From NCBI GenBank assembly GCA_913057775.1, contig CAJXOG010000002.1, positions 62,001 to 126,000 of the forward strand: a DNA stretch of 64,000 nt, written 5' to 3'. Positions 31,000 to 46,672 of this stretch are shown one piece after another (within the stretch, counting starts at the first letter, position 1; every line of letters begins with the position of its first letter). The position numbers and the translations under genes are program-made. Origin of the DNA: an uncultured Fodinibius sp. GTDB taxonomy: Bacteria > Bacteroidota > Rhodothermia > Balneolales > Balneolaceae. The notes below the pieces were generated by a model that made no database searches, was not told the DNA's origin, and was given only the letters and a program-made list of their open reading frames with translations.

Positions 31000-32118
31000 A
31001 TGGCAGAAGAAGAGAAACGTATTGGTGTTGTATTGATGAATCTCGGTGGCCCCACTGCCGATTATGCGGTTCGACCATTTTTGTATAATCTTTTTAGAGA
31101 TGAAGACATTATTAAGTTAGGCGGCGGAAAATTTCAGGACTTTTTTGCGAAGATAATTTCAAAGTTTCGGGCGCCCAATGTTCAAGAAGATTACGAAGAA
31201 ATAAATGGTTGTCCGAATGGATGTATGGGCAATAAACACTGTCTGAATCGCAAAAAAAGTATTGTTTCAACATGCTGCTCGCCTATTAACAGTCTTACCG
31301 AAAAACAGCGGCGCGGACTTGAGAAACATCTTACGAAAGTAATTCCTGGTCACACAGTAAAGGTTTATACCTGCATGAGGTACTGGTTGCCATTTGCTGA
31401 AACTACGCTCGAAGACATGGAAGACGATGGTATCACGCATGCAGTTATGGTGCCACTCTATCCTCAATTTTCTTGGACAACGACCGGGAGCAGTTATCGC
31501 GACTGGGAAACCAAGCGCGATGAGAAGTTTGGTGATGATACGCCTTGGAAAGAGTTTCATGTTAAGAATTATCACCTCGATGAAAAGTACCTCACTGCGA
31601 TGAATGACCGCATTGATGAGGCGCTGGCTGAGATGGATGAGGAAACGCGCAACAAAACACACTTTATATTTAGTGCACACGGCACACCCAAGCTCGAAGT
31701 GCGAAGCGGTGATCCCTATACTACGGAGATCAATCAGACGATGGAAGCCATCATGGAGATGCGTGGTTACGACTACGATTATTGGCTGGGATATCAATCG
31801 AAAGTGGGTCCACAAAAATGGACGCAGCCCAATACCGCTGAACTTGTGGAGCGACATATTGAGTACGGTATCAAAAACTTTTTGATGATTCCGATTGCTT
31901 TTGTGACCGATCACGTTGAAACTCTTTTTGAGTTGGGCGTTGAGCTGGTCGAGGACCTCGAAGAGGAAGGTTACGAATTTGAAAACCTGAAGGTAATGAA
32001 AGGCATCAACGATCATCCCAAGTTTATTGAAGCTCTGGGCGATCAGGTTTTGGATAAGCTGGATCACGAAGTCGATGTTGAACAGGAAAAGCAAACATCT
32101 AACAAAGTTTCTGCCTAA
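31000..32118 (+). CDS. hemH: Ferrochelatase with internal cysteine-rich insertion
   Basis: Final enzyme of heme synthesis; it inserts Fe2+ into protoporphyrin IX. The 372-aa protein has the N-terminal VLMNLGGP, catalytic His in IFSAHGTP (H227) and Glu in DHVETLFEL (E307). Between YEEI (64-68) and SPINSLTEKQ (94-103), where family members usually have a short loop, there is an insertion with C71, C75, C81, C92 and C93. It could hold a metal or Fe-S cluster. hemH opens the heme operon; hemA follows after 4 bases. Confidence 0.95.
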   Translation: MAEEEKRIGVVLMNLGGPTADYAVRPFLYNLFRDEDIIKLGGGKFQDFFAKIISKFRAPNVQEDYEEINGCPNGCMGNKHCLNRKKSIVSTCCSPINSLTEKQRRGLEKHLTKVIPGHTVKVYTCMRYWLPFAETTLEDMEDDGITHAVMVPLYPQFSWTTTGSSYRDWETKRDEKFGDDTPWKEFHVKNYHLDEKYLTAMNDRIDEALAEMDEETRNKTHFIFSAHGTPKLEVRSGDPYTTEINQTMEAIMEMRGYDYDYWLGYQSKVGPQKWTQPNTAELVERHIEYGIKNFLMIPIAFVTDHVETLFELGVELVEDLEEEGYEFENLKVMKGINDHPKFIEALGDQVLDKLDHEVDVEQEKQTSNKVSA

Positions 32119-32122
32119 ATAG

Positions 32123-33385
32123 ATGTCAGAGCAACCACAAATAACTGATTTTTGTGCTGTTGGCGTTAATCACTGGGAGGCTTCCATTGATGTACGCGAA
32201 CGTTTTAGCTTGAAACAGGCTCAGAAGAAAGAGCTTATAGAAGGTGCTAAACGCGAAGGTATCAACAGCCTGTTTGTTGTTTCGACCTGTAATCGGACTG
32301 AGATTTTTGCGCAGGATGTGACGCCCCAAGAGCTGATTCGTCTTCTGGTGACTTACTCCAATGCTTCGCTGGATGAGTTTCATAATTACGGATTTGAAAA
32401 AGAAGGCCAGCAGGCGGTTGAACATCTGTTTCAGGTTACAGTGGGACTTGACTCCCAGATCCTCGGAGATCTGCAGGTTGTAAAACAGGTTAAAGAAGGA
32501 TACGAGCTGGCCAGTGAAATGGATGCCGTGGATGGGGAGCTCCACCGACTGATGCAGCATGTTTTTCGGGCACACAAACGTTCGCGTAACGAAACGTCGC
32601 TCGGAGAAGGAGCAGCTACTACTGCTTATGCGGCGGTGAAGTTTGCGGTGAAGACGTTCGACAATCTGAAGGACAAAAATATTCTGCTGGTAGGGACCGG
32701 CAAGATTGGAAAGGTTACTTGTAAGAACTTGATCAATCTCGGTGCCCAGAAACTCACGCTTATCAACCGGACGCGAGAACGGGCCGAATTTGTGGCGGAT
32801 AAGTTTGATCTACAGGTAGCAGATATGGAGCATATGCCTGAGGAAATTGCTGAGGCCGATCTGATTATTGTAGCAACAGGAGCTAAGGAGCCGGTTATTA
32901 CGCTGGATGATATGAAGCCTTCACTGCTTGATCCTCAATTTAAAGTGATGGTAGACTTATCCGTACCCCGCAATATTGATCCGGAAATCGGTGAAATGGA
33001 CTTTGTGGATCTGGCTAATATGGACTTTCTGACGGATGTGACCGATGAAGCCTATCGCAAGCGAGAAGAGAATATTCCGCTGGTCAAAAAGATTATCGAA
33101 GATGAACTAACTGATTATAAAAACTGGCTCAGCAAACAGAAGGTGGTACCTACCATTAAGGCGTTAACGAACAAGTTTGATTCCATCCGTGAAGACGAGT
33201 ATGATTTCTTTAAGAATAAAATTTCTGATACGGATAAAGAAAAGGTTGAAAATCTGACCCGCCGCATAGTGAATAAAATTGCGGCTTATTCCATTGAACA
33301 TCTGCGTGATCATCACGAATCGGAGCAGGTGACGAAAGTAGTGAATGATATGTTTAAGCTTGAAACCAAGACCGGCGATGAGTAA
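32123..33385 (+). CDS. hemA: Glutamyl-tRNA reductase
   Basis: First committed enzyme of the C5 route; it reduces glutamyl-tRNA(Glu) to glutamate-1-semialdehyde with NADPH. In 420 aa, the catalytic Cys is in VVSTCNRTEIF (C56), GLDSQILGDLQVVKQVKEGY is the family signature, and LLVGTGKIGKVTCKNL opens the NADPH domain. The C-terminal dimerisation helix is present. Its end overlaps the hemC start by 8 bases. Confidence 0.97.
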   Translation: MSEQPQITDFCAVGVNHWEASIDVRERFSLKQAQKKELIEGAKREGINSLFVVSTCNRTEIFAQDVTPQELIRLLVTYSNASLDEFHNYGFEKEGQQAVEHLFQVTVGLDSQILGDLQVVKQVKEGYELASEMDAVDGELHRLMQHVFRAHKRSRNETSLGEGAATTAYAAVKFAVKTFDNLKDKNILLVGTGKIGKVTCKNLINLGAQKLTLINRTRERAEFVADKFDLQVADMEHMPEEIAEADLIIVATGAKEPVITLDDMKPSLLDPQFKVMVDLSVPRNIDPEIGEMDFVDLANMDFLTDVTDEAYRKREENIPLVKKIIEDELTDYKNWLSKQKVVPTIKALTNKFDSIREDEYDFFKNKISDTDKEKVENLTRRIVNKIAAYSIEHLRDHHESEQVTKVVNDMFKLETKTGDE

Positions 33386-34298
33386 GAAAACGATTCGCAT
33401 TGGGACGCGTGACAGTCAGTTAGCAACGTGGCAGGCCGAAAAGGTTGCCCGCGAATTGCAAAGGCTTGGCCATGACACCGAGCTTATTTTTGTTAAGTCA
33501 GAAGGTGATCTGGATCTGACAACACCACTGACAGAAATGGGGGGCAAAGGGGTATTTACGAAAGCACTCGATAATGCACAGCTCAATGACGAAATTGATA
33601 TTGCCGTTCATTCTTTTAAAGATCTCCCTACCGAAAATCCCCTTCCTTTAAAAGTTGCCGCTATTATGGAGCGTGCCGATGCCCGTGATTCGCTGGTTGC
33701 TCCCGACGGTACTGATTTTTTGAAAGATCCTGACTATAAAGCGACGATTGCAACAAGCAGTAATCGTCGTCGTGCCCAGTGGTTGTATCGTTATCCCAAT
33801 CATGAGATTGTAAACATCCGTGGAAACGTGAATACACGTCTCGAAAAAGTAGAGAAAAAGGAATGGGACGGAGCTATTTTTGCAGCGGCTGGATTGGAAC
33901 GTATCAATCTCGGTCATCATATAAGTGAATACTTGGATTGGATGGTTTCGGCAGCAGCGCAGGGTGCGATGGCTGTCATGATCCGTGAGGATGACAATAC
34001 GATGGAAGAGATTGTGTCGCAGCTAAATCATGATGAAACGGCGCTTTGTACCACCATTGAACGTGATTTTCTGCACGACATGGAGGCGGGTTGCAGCGCG
34101 CCCGTTGGAGCTTATGCTTTTATTGAAGATGAGAAGGTTCATTTTAAGGCTGTTGCCCTAATGCTCGATGGAAGTGAGCGATATGATTTTGAGGAAAAAG
34201 TATCAGTTGGTGAAGCTGGAGAGCTTGGCCATACCGCCGCTCAAGCACTGCTCAGCAAAGGAGCGATCAAAGTTATTGATGAGATGAAATCAGAATAG
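33378..34298 (+). CDS. hemC: Hydroxymethylbilane synthase (porphobilinogen deaminase)
   Basis: Condenses four porphobilinogens into hydroxymethylbilane. With ATG at 33378 the protein is 306 aa and starts MSKKTIRIGTRDSQLA, the normal family start. MGGKGVFTKAL and HSFKDLPT are conserved active-site blocks, and the dipyrromethane cofactor is carried by C239 in EAGCSAPVGA. An upstream in-frame start would extend back into hemA and is unlikely. It overlaps hemA by 8 bases. Confidence 0.97.
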   Translation: MSKKTIRIGTRDSQLATWQAEKVARELQRLGHDTELIFVKSEGDLDLTTPLTEMGGKGVFTKALDNAQLNDEIDIAVHSFKDLPTENPLPLKVAAIMERADARDSLVAPDGTDFLKDPDYKATIATSSNRRRAQWLYRYPNHEIVNIRGNVNTRLEKVEKKEWDGAIFAAAGLERINLGHHISEYLDWMVSAAAQGAMAVMIREDDNTMEEIVSQLNHDETALCTTIERDFLHDMEAGCSAPVGAYAFIEDEKVHFKAVALMLDGSERYDFEEKVSVGEAGELGHTAAQALLSKGAIKVIDEMKSE

Positions 34299-34400: not shown

Positions 34401-35129
34401 ATGCGACAAAACAAACGAAATATTTTAGTAACGCGACCTTTATCTGCACAGCAGTTTGAATACGCTCGTATTCTGGGACTGGAGCCCATTATTGAGCCGG
34501 CTCTGCAGTTTAACTTTCCCGAATATTGGGACAGCGTGCTCAAGGTGATTAACGAAAATCCCAAATCCGACTGGATTTTCACGAGCACAAATGGAGTTAA
34601 GGCTTTGAAAGAATTGATGGCGGCCGGACTTCATCCCCGCCCCGAAACCCAGCTTTTTGCGGTTGGATCAAAAACACAGAAAGCCCTTCAGGAGTTGGGG
34701 CTCGATGCCAAAATTCCTCGTACCGAAGACAGCAAGCATTTGGCTGAGTTAATTATCAAAGAAGGAAAAATAAATTCGGTCATCTACTTCCATGGGAATT
34801 TGAGTCGCGGTGAGATGACGGAGCGGCTGAAAGATGACGATATTGAAGTGATTGAGCTGGAGGTTTATGAAACTATTATTAATCCGGTGGAAATGCCTAA
34901 TAAGTCGGTGAGTGGAATCCTGTTTTACAGCCCCAGTGCGGTAGAAGGATTTGCTCGAGGCACGGGATTTGATGAAGAGTTGCCCCCACTTTTCGCCATT
35001 GGTCCCACGACGGCCGGTGTGCTCAAAGATCATACCGATCAACATGTAGAAATTGCCAAGCAGCCTGATACCGAAGTGCTACTCCGAACTACTGCTGACT
35101 ATATTTTTAATAAAGCTGAAAGTATATAG
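34401..35129 (+). CDS. hemD: Uroporphyrinogen-III synthase
   Basis: Cyclises hydroxymethylbilane with inversion of ring D. HemD is poorly conserved, but the 242-aa protein shows the usual landmarks: ILVTRPLS at the start, WIFTSTNGVKAL, AVGSKTQKALQELGL, GILFYSPSAVEGF and AIGPTTAGVL. The operon position between hemC and hemE supports the call. The stop codon lies at the left edge of a palindromic repeat. A more divergent second HemD-like gene is at 57771-58511. Confidence 0.93.
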   Translation: MRQNKRNILVTRPLSAQQFEYARILGLEPIIEPALQFNFPEYWDSVLKVINENPKSDWIFTSTNGVKALKELMAAGLHPRPETQLFAVGSKTQKALQELGLDAKIPRTEDSKHLAELIIKEGKINSVIYFHGNLSRGEMTERLKDDDIEVIELEVYETIINPVEMPNKSVSGILFYSPSAVEGFARGTGFDEELPPLFAIGPTTAGVLKDHTDQHVEIAKQPDTEVLLRTTADYIFNKAESI

Positions 35130-35179
35130 CCGCAGATTTTCGCAGATAAAATCCGTTTCAATCTGTGTGAATCAGTGGC
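35129..35179. repeat. Palindromic repeat between hemD and hemE
   Basis: GCCGCAGATTTTCGCAGAT (35129-35147) is imperfectly inverted as ATCTGTGTGAATCAGTGGC (35161-35179), 14 of 19 positions pairing. It fills almost the whole hemD-hemE gap and is closely like the element at 36234-36283. Confidence 0.75.
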
Positions 35180-35195
35180 CAGAAAAAAAGTATTT

Positions 35196-36245
35196 ATGAG
35201 CAATAATTTTCCAGAACTTAAAAATGATTTATTATTACGAACCCTCCGTGGCGAAGAAGTAGAACGTCCGCCGGTATGGATGATGCGTCAGGCTGGACGC
35301 TACCTTCCACAGTATATGAAACTCCGAAAGAAATATACCTTTTTCGAGCGCGTGGAAACGCCCGAACTGGCCTGCGAAATTACTATCCAGCCCATTGATG
35401 AATTAGAACCCGATGCCGCAATAATATTCTCAGACATCTTAACAATTCCACAGGCATTGGGAATTGATGTGGATCTGGTGAAAGGCAAAGGTCCGGTGAT
35501 GGAAAACCCCATCCGCAGTGTGGACGATGCTTTTTCAATTTTGGCTGAGGATATTCCCGGGAAACTTAATCACGTGGTGGAGGCGATAACACTTACGCGC
35601 AAAGAACTCAACGGACGTGTTCCGCTAATTGGTTTTGCCGGGGCACCGTGGACCTTATTCTGTTACATGGTTCAGGGCGAAGGGTCTAAGAATTTTGCCA
35701 AGGCCAAGGCGTTTATGTACCAGCACCCAGATGCGGCCAAGCACGTAATGAAAGAGTTAACCAAAGCAACAATTGACTATTTGAAAGCCCAGGTCAAAGC
35801 GGGTGCTCAGGTGGTGCAGCTGTTCGACTCATGGTCGGGATTGTTAAGTCCCGAAGATTTCAACGAGTGGGCAATGCCGTATTTAATGGAAATTTGTGAT
35901 GCTATTGATGAGGTACCGGTGATATTATTTGCCAAAGGAAGCTGGTATGCGCTGGAAAGACTCAGTTTTAAAAGTAATGCATCGGCATTGGGACTTGATT
36001 GGACGATCACGCCGGAATACGGTCGCGACGCTACCCGAGGAAATATTGTACTACAGGGTAATTTTGATCCCTCAAAGCTGATGATGCCGAGAGATGAAAT
36101 TACGCGTCAGACACGGCGCATGATCGACCGGTTTGGTACGCAGAAGTATATTGCGAATTTGGGGCACGGTATTTTGCCCAACATCCCCGTGGATAACGCA
36201 CGTGCCTTCGTAGATACAGTTAAGGAATATAGAGCCACAGATTAA
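35196..36245 (+). CDS. hemE: Uroporphyrinogen decarboxylase
   Basis: Removes four acetate carboxyls of uroporphyrinogen III to give coproporphyrinogen III. Starting at ATG 35196 (MSNNFPELKND) gives 349 aa and lines up with known HemE starts; the upstream GTG at 35175 lies inside the palindromic repeat and is rejected. Active-site blocks RPPVWMMRQAGRYLP and FSDILTIPQALG are present, as is GFAGAPWTLFCYMV. The last residues and stop codon are encoded by the left arm of the next repeat. Confidence 0.97.
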   Translation: MSNNFPELKNDLLLRTLRGEEVERPPVWMMRQAGRYLPQYMKLRKKYTFFERVETPELACEITIQPIDELEPDAAIIFSDILTIPQALGIDVDLVKGKGPVMENPIRSVDDAFSILAEDIPGKLNHVVEAITLTRKELNGRVPLIGFAGAPWTLFCYMVQGEGSKNFAKAKAFMYQHPDAAKHVMKELTKATIDYLKAQVKAGAQVVQLFDSWSGLLSPEDFNEWAMPYLMEICDAIDEVPVILFAKGSWYALERLSFKSNASALGLDWTITPEYGRDATRGNIVLQGNFDPSKLMMPRDEITRQTRRMIDRFGTQKYIANLGHGILPNIPVDNARAFVDTVKEYRATD

Positions 36246-36298: not shown

Positions 36299-37252
36299 AT
36301 GAAAAAAGAAAGTATCAAAACCCGTTTTGAAGCTTACATCCGCAATCTCCAGGATGAGATCTGCGATAGGTTAGAGCGGATCGACGGAAAGGCGCGATTT
36401 CGTCATGACGACTGGGAACGCGATGGCGGAGGAGGCGGACATACGCGAGTAATTGAAAAAGGTGATATTTTTGAAAAAGGAGGCGTCAATATATCCAGTG
36501 TACATGGAGAATTGCCCGAACTTATTCGCAAGCGCTTTGAAGTTGAACAGGGTTGGTTCTGGGCCGGGGGGCTCTCACTTGTCATTCATCCAAAAAGTCC
36601 GATGGTTCCGACTGTGCATGCGAATTACCGTTATTTTGAACTCTATGACGATGTAAAAATGAGGGAGGTGCGCGATCAGTGGTTTGGCGGCGGCGCGGAT
36701 TTAACGCCTTATTATTTATGGGATGAAGATGCCGTCCATTTTCATAAGGTGCTGAAAGCTGCCTGTGATAAACATAGCAAGGATTTATATCCCCGGTTTA
36801 AAAAAGAGTGTGACGAATACTTTTATAACGATCATCGCTCGGAAGGACGCGGAATCGGCGGACTGTTTTTTGACTACCTGCGTCCCAATGAAGAGCGTTC
36901 GGCTGAGGATTGGTATGATTTTACTACTGAAGCAGGCGATGCGTTTTTGAATAGCTATGTACCGATTGTTGAGCGACGAAAAGATGAAACTTATACTGAC
37001 CGCCAGCGATATTTTCAGGAGATTAGGCGTGGCCGCTACGTCGAGTTTAACTTGATTCATGATCGCGGTACATTGTTCGGCCTGAAAACTGAAGGGCGGA
37101 CGGAGTCAATTTTGATGAGTTTACCGCCCCAGGTTCGATGGGATTACGATTTTGATATCGAGGAAGGAAGCCGTGAGGCCTATCTCATTAATCGACTCAA
37201 AAATCCCATTGACTGGATTGAATATGGTGAGGAAGAAGGAATTCTGAATTAA
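36299..37252 (+). CDS. hemF: Oxygen-dependent coproporphyrinogen-III oxidase
   Basis: Uses O2 to convert coproporphyrinogen III to protoporphyrinogen IX. In 317 aa the family blocks are clear: GGGGGHTRV, VHANYRYFEL, WFGGGADLTPYYL and the C-terminal RGRYVEFNLIHDRGTLFGLKT and SLPPQVRW. This is the aerobic enzyme; no anaerobic HemN is in the window. It follows hemE directly after the repeat. Confidence 0.97.
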   Translation: MKKESIKTRFEAYIRNLQDEICDRLERIDGKARFRHDDWERDGGGGGHTRVIEKGDIFEKGGVNISSVHGELPELIRKRFEVEQGWFWAGGLSLVIHPKSPMVPTVHANYRYFELYDDVKMREVRDQWFGGGADLTPYYLWDEDAVHFHKVLKAACDKHSKDLYPRFKKECDEYFYNDHRSEGRGIGGLFFDYLRPNEERSAEDWYDFTTEAGDAFLNSYVPIVERRKDETYTDRQRYFQEIRRGRYVEFNLIHDRGTLFGLKTEGRTESILMSLPPQVRWDYDFDIEEGSREAYLINRLKNPIDWIEYGEEEGILN

Positions 37253-37353: not shown

Positions 37354-38346
37354 ATGACACACGGACAATTTCCTTATATACGCGGACGACGATTGCGAAC
37401 TTCGGCAGCCATGCGTGATATGGTGGCTGAGCATAACCTAAAACCGGCTGATTTTATTGCACCGGTTTTTGTGATGGAGGGCGAAAACGAGAAGGTCGAA
37501 ATTCCATCCATGCCGGATTACTATCGCTACACGCTGGACTTATTGATGGATGAACTCCAAGAGTTAAAAGACGTCGGTATTCGATCGGTATTGGTGTTTG
37601 CCAAGGTGCCTGACGAGCTCAAAGATAATAAGGGCACGGAAGCGCTTAATCCCGAGGGGCTGATGCAGCGAGCTGTCCGAGCTATTAAAGAGGAATTTCC
37701 CCAAATGCTGGTGATGACCGATATCGCGATGGATCCCTATTCGAGTTATGGTCATGATGGCATTGTCGAGGATGGCAAAATACTGAATGATGAATCTGTG
37801 CAAGTGCTTTCAAAAATGGCGGTAAGTCATGCCGAGGCCGGTGTTGATATGGTGGCTCCATCAGACATGATGGATGGTCGTATTGGCGCGATGCGCGAAG
37901 CATTGGACGAGGAAGGATTTGAGCACACAGGCATCATGGCGTACAGTGCGAAATATGCCTCCAGTTACTACGGCCCGTTTCGGGATGCACTGGATTCGGC
38001 GCCCGGATTTGGAGACAAGAAAACCTATCAGATGGATCCGGCCAATGTGCAAGAGGCTATTAAGGAGGCAAAACTCGACGAACAGGAAGGAGCTGATATC
38101 GTGATGGTAAAGCCCGGATTGCCATATATGGATGTCATTAGAGCTGTCAAAGAGAGCGTCTCGGTGCCGGTTTCGGTGTATAATGTTTCCGGAGAATACG
38201 CTATGTTAAAGGCGGCTGCCGAGAAGGGATGGCTGAATGAAGAAGAAGCCATGATGGAGGCACTGGTTGGATTCAAGCGAGCCGGTGCGGACTTGATTGC
38301 CACCTACTTTGCCAAGGCAGCATCGAAAATATTATTAGAACAATAG
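37354..38346 (+). CDS. hemB: Delta-aminolevulinic acid dehydratase (porphobilinogen synthase)
   Basis: Condenses two 5-aminolevulinates to porphobilinogen. The 330-aa protein has the Schiff-base lysines in YSAKYASSYYGPFRDA and VMVKPGLPYMD. The metal-site region reads TDIAMDPYSSYGHDG, with Asp where zinc-dependent enzymes have three Cys, so it is the zinc-independent (Mg/K-type) class. It lies between two repeats in the operon. The start MTHGQFPYIRGRRLRTSAAMRDM is typical. Confidence 0.97.
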   Translation: MTHGQFPYIRGRRLRTSAAMRDMVAEHNLKPADFIAPVFVMEGENEKVEIPSMPDYYRYTLDLLMDELQELKDVGIRSVLVFAKVPDELKDNKGTEALNPEGLMQRAVRAIKEEFPQMLVMTDIAMDPYSSYGHDGIVEDGKILNDESVQVLSKMAVSHAEAGVDMVAPSDMMDGRIGAMREALDEEGFEHTGIMAYSAKYASSYYGPFRDALDSAPGFGDKKTYQMDPANVQEAIKEAKLDEQEGADIVMVKPGLPYMDVIRAVKESVSVPVSVYNVSGEYAMLKAAAEKGWLNEEEAMMEALVGFKRAGADLIATYFAKAASKILLEQ

Positions 38347-38376: not shown

Positions 38377-38395
38377 CACAGAAATATAATCTGTG
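38377..38395. repeat. Short degenerate CACAGA/TCTGTG palindrome
   Basis: CACAGA-aatataa-TCTGTG in the hemB-hemL gap, followed at about 38413 by GCGTTATCTGCGTTCC, looks like a decayed copy of the CAGATTAA repeats earlier in the operon. Confidence 0.45.
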
Positions 38396-38443
38396 AAGAC
38401 CTGCCTTTTCAGCGTTATCTGCGTTCCAATCATAAACGATTTT

Positions 38444-39742
38444 ATGTTAGAAAAGAGTAAAAAACTATTTGAGCGAGCACAGCAATTTATTCCCGGAGGC
38501 GTAAATTCTCCCGCCCGGGCCTTTAAATCGGTAGGTGGAACACCTGTATTCTTGGAAAAAGCCAAGGGATCTATTCTAACCGATGTAGATGGCAAGGAAT
38601 ACATTGACTATGTAGGATCATGGGGACCGATGATTTTGGGTCATGCCTATGAGCCGGTGATCAAAGCTGTTAAAGAAACAGCGGCTAAATCTACCTCTTT
38701 TGGGGCTCCTACTGAGATCGAAGTTAAGATGGCAGAGTTAGTTAAACAGATGGTGCCGGGAGTGGATAAAATCCGAATGGTGAATTCCGGAACTGAAGCG
38801 TGCATGAGTGCAATCCGTGTGGCGCGGGGCTATACCGGAAGAGATAAGGTTATAAAATTTGAAGGTAATTATCACGGTCACGGAGATTCTTTTCTGATTA
38901 ACGCTGGCAGCGGTGCCCTAACGCTTGGTCAACCGAGTAGTCCGGGAGTTACAGAGGGAACAGCTAAAGATACATTGACAGCTAATTTCAATGATCTGAA
39001 TTCCGTTAAGAAGCTGCTCAATGAATATGAGGGAGAAGTTGCGGCCATTATTTTAGAACCTGTTGCAGGCAACATGGGGTGTATCCCACCGAAAAAGGGA
39101 TTTTTGGCTGGGCTTCGCGAGTTGTGTGATGCCCATAATGTCGTTCTTATTTTTGACGAAGTGATGACCGGATTTCGCGTGGCAATGGGTGGAGCACAAG
39201 AGCGTTATGGTGTTACTGCTGATCTTGTGACTTATGGAAAGATCATCGGTGCAGGACTGCCGGTAGGGGCTTTTGGTGGCAAACAGGAGATTATGGATGT
39301 TGTTTCTCCGGTGGGTAATGTCTATCAGGCGGGAACACTTTCAGGTAATCCGCTGGCAATGGCGGCCGGATATGCACTGCTTTCGGAGTTGCATGAGAAG
39401 CCACTGCATTATGATGAGCTGGAAGAAAAAACCGTCAAGCTGGCCACGGGGTTAAAAGATGTGTTCGAAGATCATGGGATTCCTTTTGTACTCAACCAGG
39501 TCGGTTCCATGTTGAGTATCTTTTTTACAGAACAAGAAGAAGTTGTTGATTTTAAAACGGCTAATACGACTGATCAGGCATTTTTTAAAGCTTATTTCCA
39601 TCAGATGTTAGAGCATGGAATTTATTTACCGCCATCACCTTTTGAATCGCTGTTTCTTGCAAATTCATTAACAGATGATCATCTGGAACAGACTATTGAA
39701 GCTGCTGATAAATCCATCGAAAAAGCCCTGAAGCAGAGCTAA
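38444..39742 (+). CDS. hemL: Glutamate-1-semialdehyde 2,1-aminomutase
   Basis: PLP enzyme that moves the amino group of glutamate-1-semialdehyde to give 5-aminolevulinate. Starting at ATG 38444 ([12 protein letters not shown]) gives 432 aa, the normal length; the frame is open further upstream but that part is repeat-like. [24 protein letters not shown], and the PLP lysine in [17 protein letters not shown] are present. It completes the C5 entry with hemA. Confidence 0.97.
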
Positions 39743-41283: not shown

Positions 41284-41304
41284 GGGTAAAAATAACCTTA
41301 CCCC
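41284..41304 (-). terminator. Possible terminator of the CDGSH gene
   Basis: GGGGTAA pairs with TTACCCC across the stop codon of the CDGSH gene, followed on the minus strand by ATTTTTAT. A second overlapping hairpin, GCCTTC/GAAGGC (41253-41273), stands just beyond. Confidence 0.5.
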
Positions 41305-41948
41305 TCAAAACCTACGTCCTTATGCGTACCATCGCAAAACGGTTTGCCGGATGATTGACCGCAGCGGCAAAGGGCTACATTTTTAGAGCTGTTGACAGCT
41401 TCGTTTGCAATAGAGTGTATCCGATAAGTACCCTCAAGCAAAATTGGTCCGTCATCCATTAATTTTACAATCAGTTTACTTTGGGATGGATCACCGTCTT
41501 TGGTGGGATGCAGTTTAGCCTTATCGAATGAGGCCGGTGCTTTAAAATCAACATTCTTGTGCGTATCGTCACAAAGGGGTTTGTTTTCAGATGCGCCACA
41601 GCGGCAAACAGCGACTCGCGTATCTTCAAGTAACGTTTCTCCCTCTGCATTCTGAATCTCAATATCACCTCTTAGATACAGTGGCCCGTCGGGGACAATG
41701 GTAATAGTATTCTCGCGCGCTGGAAGCTCGTCCTCATCGCCCTTATAGTGCAGGGCACCGGTAGGACAATGGTGCACAACCTCTTTTATTTTTTCGGCAG
41801 AAGCTTCTTCGGGAGTAACCCAGGGCTTGTTATCCGGATTAAAAACCGAAGGCAAATTATTGACGCATTCCGCAGAATGAATGCATCGTTTGCTGTCAAA
41901 TTCTACAGTAATATCGTCCGATTCGTAACTGTGTATCTTGTTTTCCAT
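41298..41948 (-). CDS. Fe-S protein: divergent ferredoxin-like domain plus two CDGSH domains
   Basis: Three predicted cluster sites are joined in 216 aa. Residues 10-70 match the divergent 4Fe-4S (Fer4_19/YjdI) family, with C22, C28 and C61-P in RCIHSAEC and HHCPTGAL. Then come two CDGSH zinc-finger-like 2Fe-2S motifs: CRC...CDDTH (C115, C117, C126, H130) and CRC...CDGTH (C194, C196, C205, H209). CDGSH proteins handle 2Fe-2S clusters and redox chemistry. It is likely soluble and monocistronic. The partner is unknown. Confidence 0.85.
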   Translation of the reverse strand: MENKIHSYESDDITVEFDSKRCIHSAECVNNLPSVFNPDNKPWVTPEEASAEKIKEVVHHCPTGALHYKGDEDELPARENTITIVPDGPLYLRGDIEIQNAEGETLLEDTRVAVCRCGASENKPLCDDTHKNVDFKAPASFDKAKLHPTKDGDPSQSKLIVKLMDDGPILLEGTYRIHSIANEAVNSSKNVALCRCGQSSGKPFCDGTHKDVGFEG

Positions 41949-45313: not shown

Positions 45314-46672
45314 TTACTTTCCACTTAAAAACGTTTGTACTTTTTTAGCCGTTTCAAATCCGGATAAAATACAGTCGGGTACGGATACGCCGTCCCGAAA
45401 ATTCCCTTCAACAAATAGACCTTTTTTCTGTTTTTCAATTTGAGCTATTTGGTTGAGAAATTGATCATAACCAATCTCATATTGGGGGATGGTCTTCGGC
45501 CAAAACTTATGATGCGAAAAGACCGGTTCCCCTGATATATCAAGCATGTCACTGATTTCAGATAATACGATATCTTGCAATTCTTCCTTTGATTTTTCCG
45601 CAAGTTCCGGGTTGCGCGCGCCGCCGATAAAACAAGTTAGCAACTGGTGATTTCCAGGAGCACGACCGGGAAATAGTGACGACGAGAATAGCACTCCCAG
45701 GGTTTTTCGTTTTTCGGCTTCGGGAATGAGCATTCCAAAACCATCAAGCGGGTGACCAACTTGCTCATCAGAGAAGCCTAATGCTACCACACTGAGTGGA
45801 GCATACGGAAGATTATCGAGCGGCTTGAAAATAGAATCATCAAAAATAGTCGAGAGTAAATGCGCGGGCAGCGTTGATATAATGATATCGTGCTCATCAC
45901 TAAAAGTGTGGTTGTTTCGTTGGCCTTTGACCATCCATTTTTCATCATCCTTAGCAACAGACTGTATCTCGGTTTCGGTTTGTATCCCTTTGTCCAGAGC
46001 GTCAGCTATTGCTATTGGTAATTGCTGATTTCCACCTTCAAAAGAGAGTAATGCCCTTCGTGGGGAATTGCTATTGCGATCACGTTTGAGCATCCCCATT
46101 AGCAAACTACCGTGTTGCTGTTCCATGCCCCATAGCGATTCAAAGGTGTGTTTCATCGATAAATTTTTGGGATCACCGGCATAAATCCCGGATACAAAAG
46201 GATTCACCGCGTAGTCCAGTGGCTCCCTGCCGAGGCGACGTGTAATAAAATCAGCAATGGATTCATCCTCTTTATTTGATCGCGAAATAAAGGGCTCTTT
46301 CAGCAGTCGAAATTTAGCTCTGAGAGAGAAGAGATTAGTAGTCAAAAAGCTTCCCAGCGACATTGGCAAGGAAGTAGGTTGGCCATTTTTAACAATGAAC
46401 CTCTTTTTTGCTGTTTTTCCCGCTTCGATACTCCTGTTTTTTAGGTTTAATTCTTCAAGTAGATCCCAAACCTCCTTTGAATTAACCATTAGCGTGTTGG
46501 GACCTTCTTCGACCAGCCACCCATTTTCGTTATGTGTTTTAATAGCTCCGCCTACTTGCTGGTTTTTCTCATAGACCGTTGCGTCAATATTGTTTTGGGA
46601 TAATTTATAGGCTACTGATAACCCCGAAATTCCTGCCCCAAGTATGCCAACCGATTGTTTTATATTGGTCAT
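45314..46672 (-). CDS. hemG: Oxygen-dependent protoporphyrinogen oxidase (HemY type)
   Basis: FAD enzyme that oxidises protoporphyrinogen IX to protoporphyrin IX, the substrate of HemH (also called HemY; NCBI often names it HemG). The 452-aa protein opens VGILGAGISGLSVAYKL, the FAD dinucleotide motif, followed by EKNQQVGGAIKT and EEGPNTLM. A coproporphyrinogen-oxidising variant (CgoX) cannot be ruled out by motif alone, but hemF in the operon favours the classical role. It lies 5 kb from the main hem operon, divergent from the iron-binding lipoprotein gene. Confidence 0.92.
   Translation of the reverse strand: MTNIKQSVGILGAGISGLSVAYKLSQNNIDATVYEKNQQVGGAIKTHNENGWLVEEGPNTLMVNSKEVWDLLEELNLKNRSIEAGKTAKKRFIVKNGQPTSLPMSLGSFLTTNLFSLRAKFRLLKEPFISRSNKEDESIADFITRRLGREPLDYAVNPFVSGIYAGDPKNLSMKHTFESLWGMEQQHGSLLMGMLKRDRNSNSPRRALLSFEGGNQQLPIAIADALDKGIQTETEIQSVAKDDEKWMVKGQRNNHTFSDEHDIIISTLPAHLLSTIFDDSIFKPLDNLPYAPLSVVALGFSDEQVGHPLDGFGMLIPEAEKRKTLGVLFSSSLFPGRAPGNHQLLTCFIGGARNPELAEKSKEELQDIVLSEISDMLDISGEPVFSHHKFWPKTIPQYEIGYDQFLNQIAQIEKQKKGLFVEGNFRDGVSVPDCILSGFETAKKVQTFLSGK

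Follow-up and report, generated by a model that had tools for sequence, protein, structure and literature searches.

A candidate third iron-sulfur site in the porphyrin-gate hinge of the ferrochelatase of Balneolales

The window, by which we mean the whole stretch of 64,000 nucleotides analysed here from an uncultured Fodinibius sp., contains a heme biosynthesis operon in the order hemH-A-C-D-E-F-B-L between positions 31000 and 39742. Its first gene, hemH (31000..32118, + strand), encodes a protoporphyrin-type ferrochelatase of 372 aa, identified from the open reading frame list and from profile matches that exceed the cut-offs of PF00762 and TIGR00109 (hemH in NCBIfam, 273.8 bits). The closest named relative among the matches listed is from Fodinibius halophilus (Balneolaceae, Balneolota), with 91% identity. 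The genes that follow on the + strand were likewise assigned by profile matches: hemA for glutamyl-tRNA reductase (32123..33385), hemC (33345..34298, whose listed start overlaps hemA), hemD for uroporphyrinogen-III synthase (34401..35129, with matches under the curated cut-offs), hemE (35175..36245), hemF for the oxygen-dependent coproporphyrinogen oxidase (36299..37252), hemB (37354..38346) and a class-III aminotransferase gene (38393..39742), which matches at the level of class III only and which we call hemL from its operon position. A hemY-type protoporphyrinogen oxidase, also recognised by a profile match, is encoded outside the operon on the - strand (45314..46672), and a protein with Fer4_19 and CDGSH (mitoNEET-like) matches (41298-41948, - strand) sits between the operon and hemY. 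The genome of the window gave zero matches to the coproheme decarboxylase family ChdC. The presence of hemF and of a HemY-type oxidase, the absence of ChdC and a lip segment in HemH that aligns with human ferrochelatase together indicate that heme is made here by the aerobic protoporphyrin route and not by the coproporphyrin route. We also observed a weak HemJ-like match (PF03653) below the cut-off at locus L169 (G000:C4:274070-274366), despite the HemY-type oxidase in that genome.

HemH has six cysteines in total, at residues 71, 75, 81, 92, 93 and 125, and the first five are spaced as C71-x3-C75-x5-C81-x10-C92-C93. Their codons lie at 31210..31212 (Cys71), 31222..31224 (Cys75), 31240..31242 (Cys81) and 31273..31278 (Cys92-Cys93), all on the + strand. 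The alignment places them in a stretch of 25 residues (residues 69-93; 31204..31278, + strand) which replaces a three-residue turn, GGK or GGG, between the conserved Ile68 and Ser94, a net gain of 22 residues. Relatives that lack the insertion read YxxIGGKSPI, YxxIGGGSPI or near variants at the same place, and the PF00762 match to HemH is split in two (profile positions 2-63 and 64-315) with the insertion as the joint. When six cysteines are placed at random over 372 residues, a span of 23 holds five of them in only 38 of 200,000 draws. Conservation is a stronger test than such odds.

A search of 128 Balneolales genomes gave matches in 101, made up of 79 full-length relatives, two fragments that end at the contig edge ahead of the loop (G183 and G249) and 20 weak matches of another kind. 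The five-cysteine pattern, with its spacing taken from the window and the remaining fixed letters from the aligned set, is found in 79/79 full-length relatives (loci L081-L159). For a wider comparison we used an alignment of 122 rows (A2), from which repeats of identical proteins were excluded, as were those enzymes with a cysteine-rich insertion after the catalytic histidine (here called post-His) that have 300 aa or fewer (3/17). All five cysteines are present in each of the 79 loop-bearing rows, and columns 71-92 are empty in all 43 others. The sequence-only reading had marked 31192-31281, which are HemH codons 65-94, as holding five cysteines at 71-93 in a loop that is free of them in most ferrochelatases, and this is true for the rows read; the alignment that it proposed rules out that the cysteines are not conserved in close relatives. 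G74, G77, N83 and S90 are likewise invariant in the 79 rows. Position 125 varies among them (Cys in 51, Ala in 28). Each of the five positions uses both TGT and TGC with zero replacements, which means that the codons drift while the residue is kept. A lone cysteine in the short turn at the place of the loop was seen at two loci, L190 (outside A2) and L168 (inside A2). No genome with both a loop-type and a post-His enzyme was found in the order search of 128 genomes.

The loop type appears to be limited to Balneolales among the Bacteroidota matches listed and read. Across 244 genomes of the class, it occurs only in this order among the matches listed. In 394 genomes of the phylum, 106 matched at 1e-40 or better, and the 27 that are of loop type all belong to Balneolales. 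Of the other 79 genomes with a match, 26 were read as rows of A2 and are without the loop, including three whose matches span the loop place (G313, G073 and G320; loci L163, L014 and L162). The matches in the remaining 53 either start no earlier than model position 92 or extend across the loop place but are too short for a reading (G361). A pattern scan of genome contigs returned at least 18 loci, all from named Balneolota members. A tblastn search of plasmids gave 155 records, each under 60% identity, and a search of viral contigs for the loop found none.

The insertion is bordered by residues that are expected to hold the porphyrin. We obtained the human equivalents by counting along the alignment to the human chain, which starts at residue 65. 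Tyr65 (31192..31194), the left border, corresponds to human Y123, and Ser94 (31279..31281), the right border, to S130; Arg57 (31168..31170) corresponds to R115 and His227 (31678..31680) to the catalytic H263, all on the + strand. These four residues are invariant in 122/122 rows, and the same holds for E307, the equivalent of human E343, so that the catalytic histidine and the acidic residue of a ferrochelatase are both in place. According to a review, propionate 6 of the porphyrin is hydrogen-bonded by S130 and Y123, and propionate 7 has R115 as its partner (PMC9133952); the upper lip, human residues 90-130, is described elsewhere as mobile when porphyrin binds (PMC11203519). The insertion stands for human residues 127-129, that is, at the end of this gate segment and between both propionate-6 ligands. 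The fold matches human ferrochelatase with Z 41.5-41.6 over 327 residues and an rmsd of 1.9; the same fold comparison also returned SirB, CbiK and FetB, which share only the wider chelatase fold. An AlphaFold2 (AF2) model with the 122 rows has a mean pLDDT of 89.9 and predicts an ordered loop, with only moderate confidence there (block means of 72 for residues 71-80, 80 for 81-90 and 86 for 91-100). With 8 rows the loop is poorly predicted (pLDDT 40-46).

An internal-insertion [2Fe-2S] ferrochelatase, of the Myxococcus xanthus type, was reportedly described by Shepherd et al. in 2006. The survey by Weerth, Medlock and Dailey (2021, PMC8529089) describes two cluster placements, one C-terminal and one in an internal insertion of 22-34 residues, and reports the latter in 43/46 Bacteroidetes sequences, as the usual type there. 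It gives the ferrochelatase [2Fe-2S] motif as CX(1,11)CX(1,11)C, states that an adjacent CC pair ligates the cluster in internal-insertion enzymes, and sets aside 18 sequences with the motif elsewhere, with clusters confirmed in the two places only (PMC8529089). The window enzyme fits the motif twice, with C71-x3-C75-x5-C81 and with C75-x5-C81-x10-C92, in both cases outside the two places accepted in that survey. It has no cysteine past residue 125 and carries Trp159 at the place of human C196, which sets it apart from the C-terminal type of human and Caulobacter; it has the fold in common with these enzymes, and the cofactor by proposal only. The earlier suggestion that a site in the N-terminal half is distinct from the C-terminal one is thus borne out. 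What the sequence-only reading also said, that known bacterial clusters lie near the C-terminus, is incomplete, as it omitted the internal-insertion [2Fe-2S] class that is usual in Bacteroidetes (PMC8529089).

Membership of the M. xanthus class was considered for the window HemH, and was dropped once the Bacteroidota insertions were read in sequence. Of 15 genes from other Bacteroidota, two have no readable motif (L191 and L192), and the remaining 13 are all rich in cysteine after the catalytic histidine motif, 10 of them with an adjacent CC pair and none with the N-terminal loop insertion. The Balneolaceae genes of the other type have the post-His insertion in 20/20 cases. This insertion lies about 12 residues past the catalytic histidine, near window residue 239; we equate it with the internal class of the survey from the phylum and the cysteine arrangement, and its place is defined from Bacteroidota examples and not from M. 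xanthus. No cysteine is found in columns 228-260 of the 79 loop rows, the window included. What the window enzyme has in common with the internal-insertion enzymes of M. xanthus type is a cysteine-rich insertion of 20-30 residues within the ferrochelatase fold, often with CC. Compared with the post-His enzymes of Bacteroidota, its insertion at 71-93 comes some 150 residues earlier, and the identity to the window is just 26-28% (14 rows).

The core of the window enzyme is closer to two other groups. Split-site enzymes from other families of the same class are 40-47% identical to it (13 rows) and differ in having their cysteines at two other places. This split set, found in 13/14 cysteine-tailed rows (loci L013, L016, L023, L025, L026, L028 and L162-L168), consists of a CC pair immediately following a DPY that comes after the catalytic histidine, and of CxxC in a long tail. 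It may represent a cluster with ligands from both described places instead of a purely C-terminal one; the survey assigns Rhodothermus and Salinibacter to the C-terminal type (PMC8529089). The ferrochelatases of family f15, from the same phylum, are 43-47% identical to the window (12 rows), but they lack the insertion and have 0-3 cysteines in the matched part, with no cysteine set. The ferrochelatases that we read tend to have either a dense set of cysteines (in this loop, post-His or split) or few (0-3 in the matched part of the 15 rows labelled 'none'). As the window HemH has neither the C-terminal nor the post-His cysteines, its cysteine site at 71-93 is, on the sequences compared, a third placement apart from the two described positions, and not simply an alternative to the C-terminus. 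We found no publication in the open-licence literature on a ferrochelatase with cysteines in this loop.

The investigation of the history of the gene places the loop-bearing rows in one clade of the loop-free tree (100, starred) and the post-His rows in another. The four labels take four changes on this tree, where the minimum possible is three; it was built by a quick method with 40/79 loop rows and has long branches flagged, and we draw no conclusion from the order in which the groups branch. A common origin of the window loop and the post-His insertion was considered and is not supported: the local alignment score against nine insertions is 33, which is reached or exceeded by 131/500 shuffles of the window loop with the cysteines fixed and by 262/500 full shuffles. 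For a consensus-like loop, shuffles were equal or better in 211/500 (cysteines fixed) and 342/500 (full) cases. By this comparison there is no detectable kinship between the two insertions beyond chance.

In three post-His Balneolaceae (L178, L179 and L180) the gene order is hemH-hemY-A-C-D-E-F-B-L, which is the order of the window plus hemY. The hemA of these genomes is 38-39% identical to that of the window, and the corresponding figures for two loop-bearing genomes are 51% and 68%. Their hemB and hemL are 72-76% and 65-66% identical to the window, and the values for the more distant loop-bearing genome are 70% and 69%, so that these two genes are about as close; in the other loop-bearing genome, the 16 kb examined contained neither hemB nor hemL. 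These identities suggest that part of the operon was likely replaced in the post-His Balneolaceae. We find hemA adjoining hemH in 78/79 loop loci, in 0/17 post-His loci, in 0/15 'none' loci and in 0/14 cysteine-tailed loci, a contrast that is at least partly a flank effect because hemY lies between the two genes in the three post-His genomes. Nine further Balneolaceae genomes, 91-99% complete, have no ferrochelatase match (G065, G149, G046, G123, G139, G077, G135, G172 and G170). None of the nine has a hemA above the family cut-off (0/9) or a ChdC match, and heme synthesis has probably been lost in these nine members of the family.

The best explanation for the insertion, to which we give a probability of about 0.6, is a candidate [2Fe-2S] cluster where the porphyrin-gating lip hinges. 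That the insertion holds a metal cluster of some kind is the firmest part of this reading and seems quite likely; the assignment to the [2Fe-2S] type is probable to a lesser degree. The explanation as a whole is favoured by the retention of all five cysteines in 79/79 relatives with synonymous variation only, by the fit of the loop to the published motif and its adjacent CC pair, by the tendency of the ferrochelatases read here towards either a dense cysteine set or few cysteines, by the ordered loop in the model with 122 rows, and by the location of the insertion between Y65 and S94, where the upper lip ends. Four of the five cysteines would hold the cluster, which would stiffen the hinge of the lip; without it, Y65 and S94 would be disturbed, to the detriment of porphyrin binding. 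Tentatively, cluster occupancy or redox state might determine how Y65 and S94 are arranged, in which case less porphyrin would be bound and less heme made under Fe-S shortage or oxidative or nitrosative stress. We regard it as an equally speculative idea that Fe-S binding in ferrochelatase evolved independently for a third time, here in the lip hinge with both propionate-6 ligands at its flanks, and that loss of the cluster would directly block porphyrin binding, forming a built-in iron and redox gate.

The aerobic protoporphyrin route deduced above agrees with a link in print between the cluster and aerobic life, which counts in favour of a cluster. Several observations count against it. The loop is modelled with moderate confidence at best. 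The f15 relatives do without any cysteine set at 43-47% identity. Five invariant cysteines arranged as C-x3-C-x5-C-x10-CC match no [2Fe-2S] signature that we know of. Many cysteines need not mean a cluster, as is seen from the Plasmodium ferrochelatase, for which a published account reports 14 cysteines and no evidence of a cluster, and from the Ruegeria enzyme, whose CXC is accompanied by 1-10% metal and by a bound pigment (PMC8529089). When the described clusters are lost through Cys-to-Ser exchange, bacterial enzymes are reported as still active with a similar Km (PMC8529089), which argues against an essential gating role, although those clusters sit elsewhere.

Other explanations for the loop seem less probable. 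Four of the cysteines could bind zinc in a structural site that does no more than staple the long loop where the lip hinges. The invariant cysteines together with G74, G77, N83 and S90 do resemble a compact metal-bound loop, and a single-metal thiolate site requires no redox role, but no zinc-binding Pfam family matched HemH at E up to 1, and the eight characterised ferrochelatases with the motif hold [2Fe-2S], none being described as a zinc protein in the survey's account of them (PMC8529089); we consider zinc unlikely. A metal-free redox switch, with loop disulfides that close or loosen the lip upon oxidation, is slightly more doubtful still. Adjacent cysteines have been named as possible redox switches (PMC8529089), and a set of five at the gate leaves one unpaired or exchangeable. 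Five invariant cysteines exceed what such a switch needs, however, the loop fits the Fe-S motif, and the enzyme is one which we assume to be cytosolic.

It is improbable that the cysteines act as a relay that delivers the substrate iron, handing Fe(II) to the active site. They are near the mouth of the pocket in sequence, but thiolates prefer softer metals, and the loop-free relatives keep R57, Y65, S94, H227 and E307 (122/122 rows) and need no relay. Least probable of all, and very much so, is a lineage-specific loop without effect on heme synthesis in which the cysteines serve folding alone. In its favour, some genera of the family have a loop-free enzyme and the f15 enzymes have no cysteine set, but the loop-free Balneolaceae genera with a ferrochelatase have the other cysteine insertion (20/20 read).

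The ferrochelatase cluster was discovered in 1994, and its purpose is described as an unanswered question ever since (PMC8529089). Here, the cluster-like site adjoins substrate-binding residues in sequence, and a gating role is therefore directly testable. Balneolaceae hold two placements of the cysteine-cluster type, the loop and the post-His insertion, each heading a hem operon of like order. If cysteine clusters were indeed gained independently at different places of one fold, it would be the cofactor, and not its position, that is selected.
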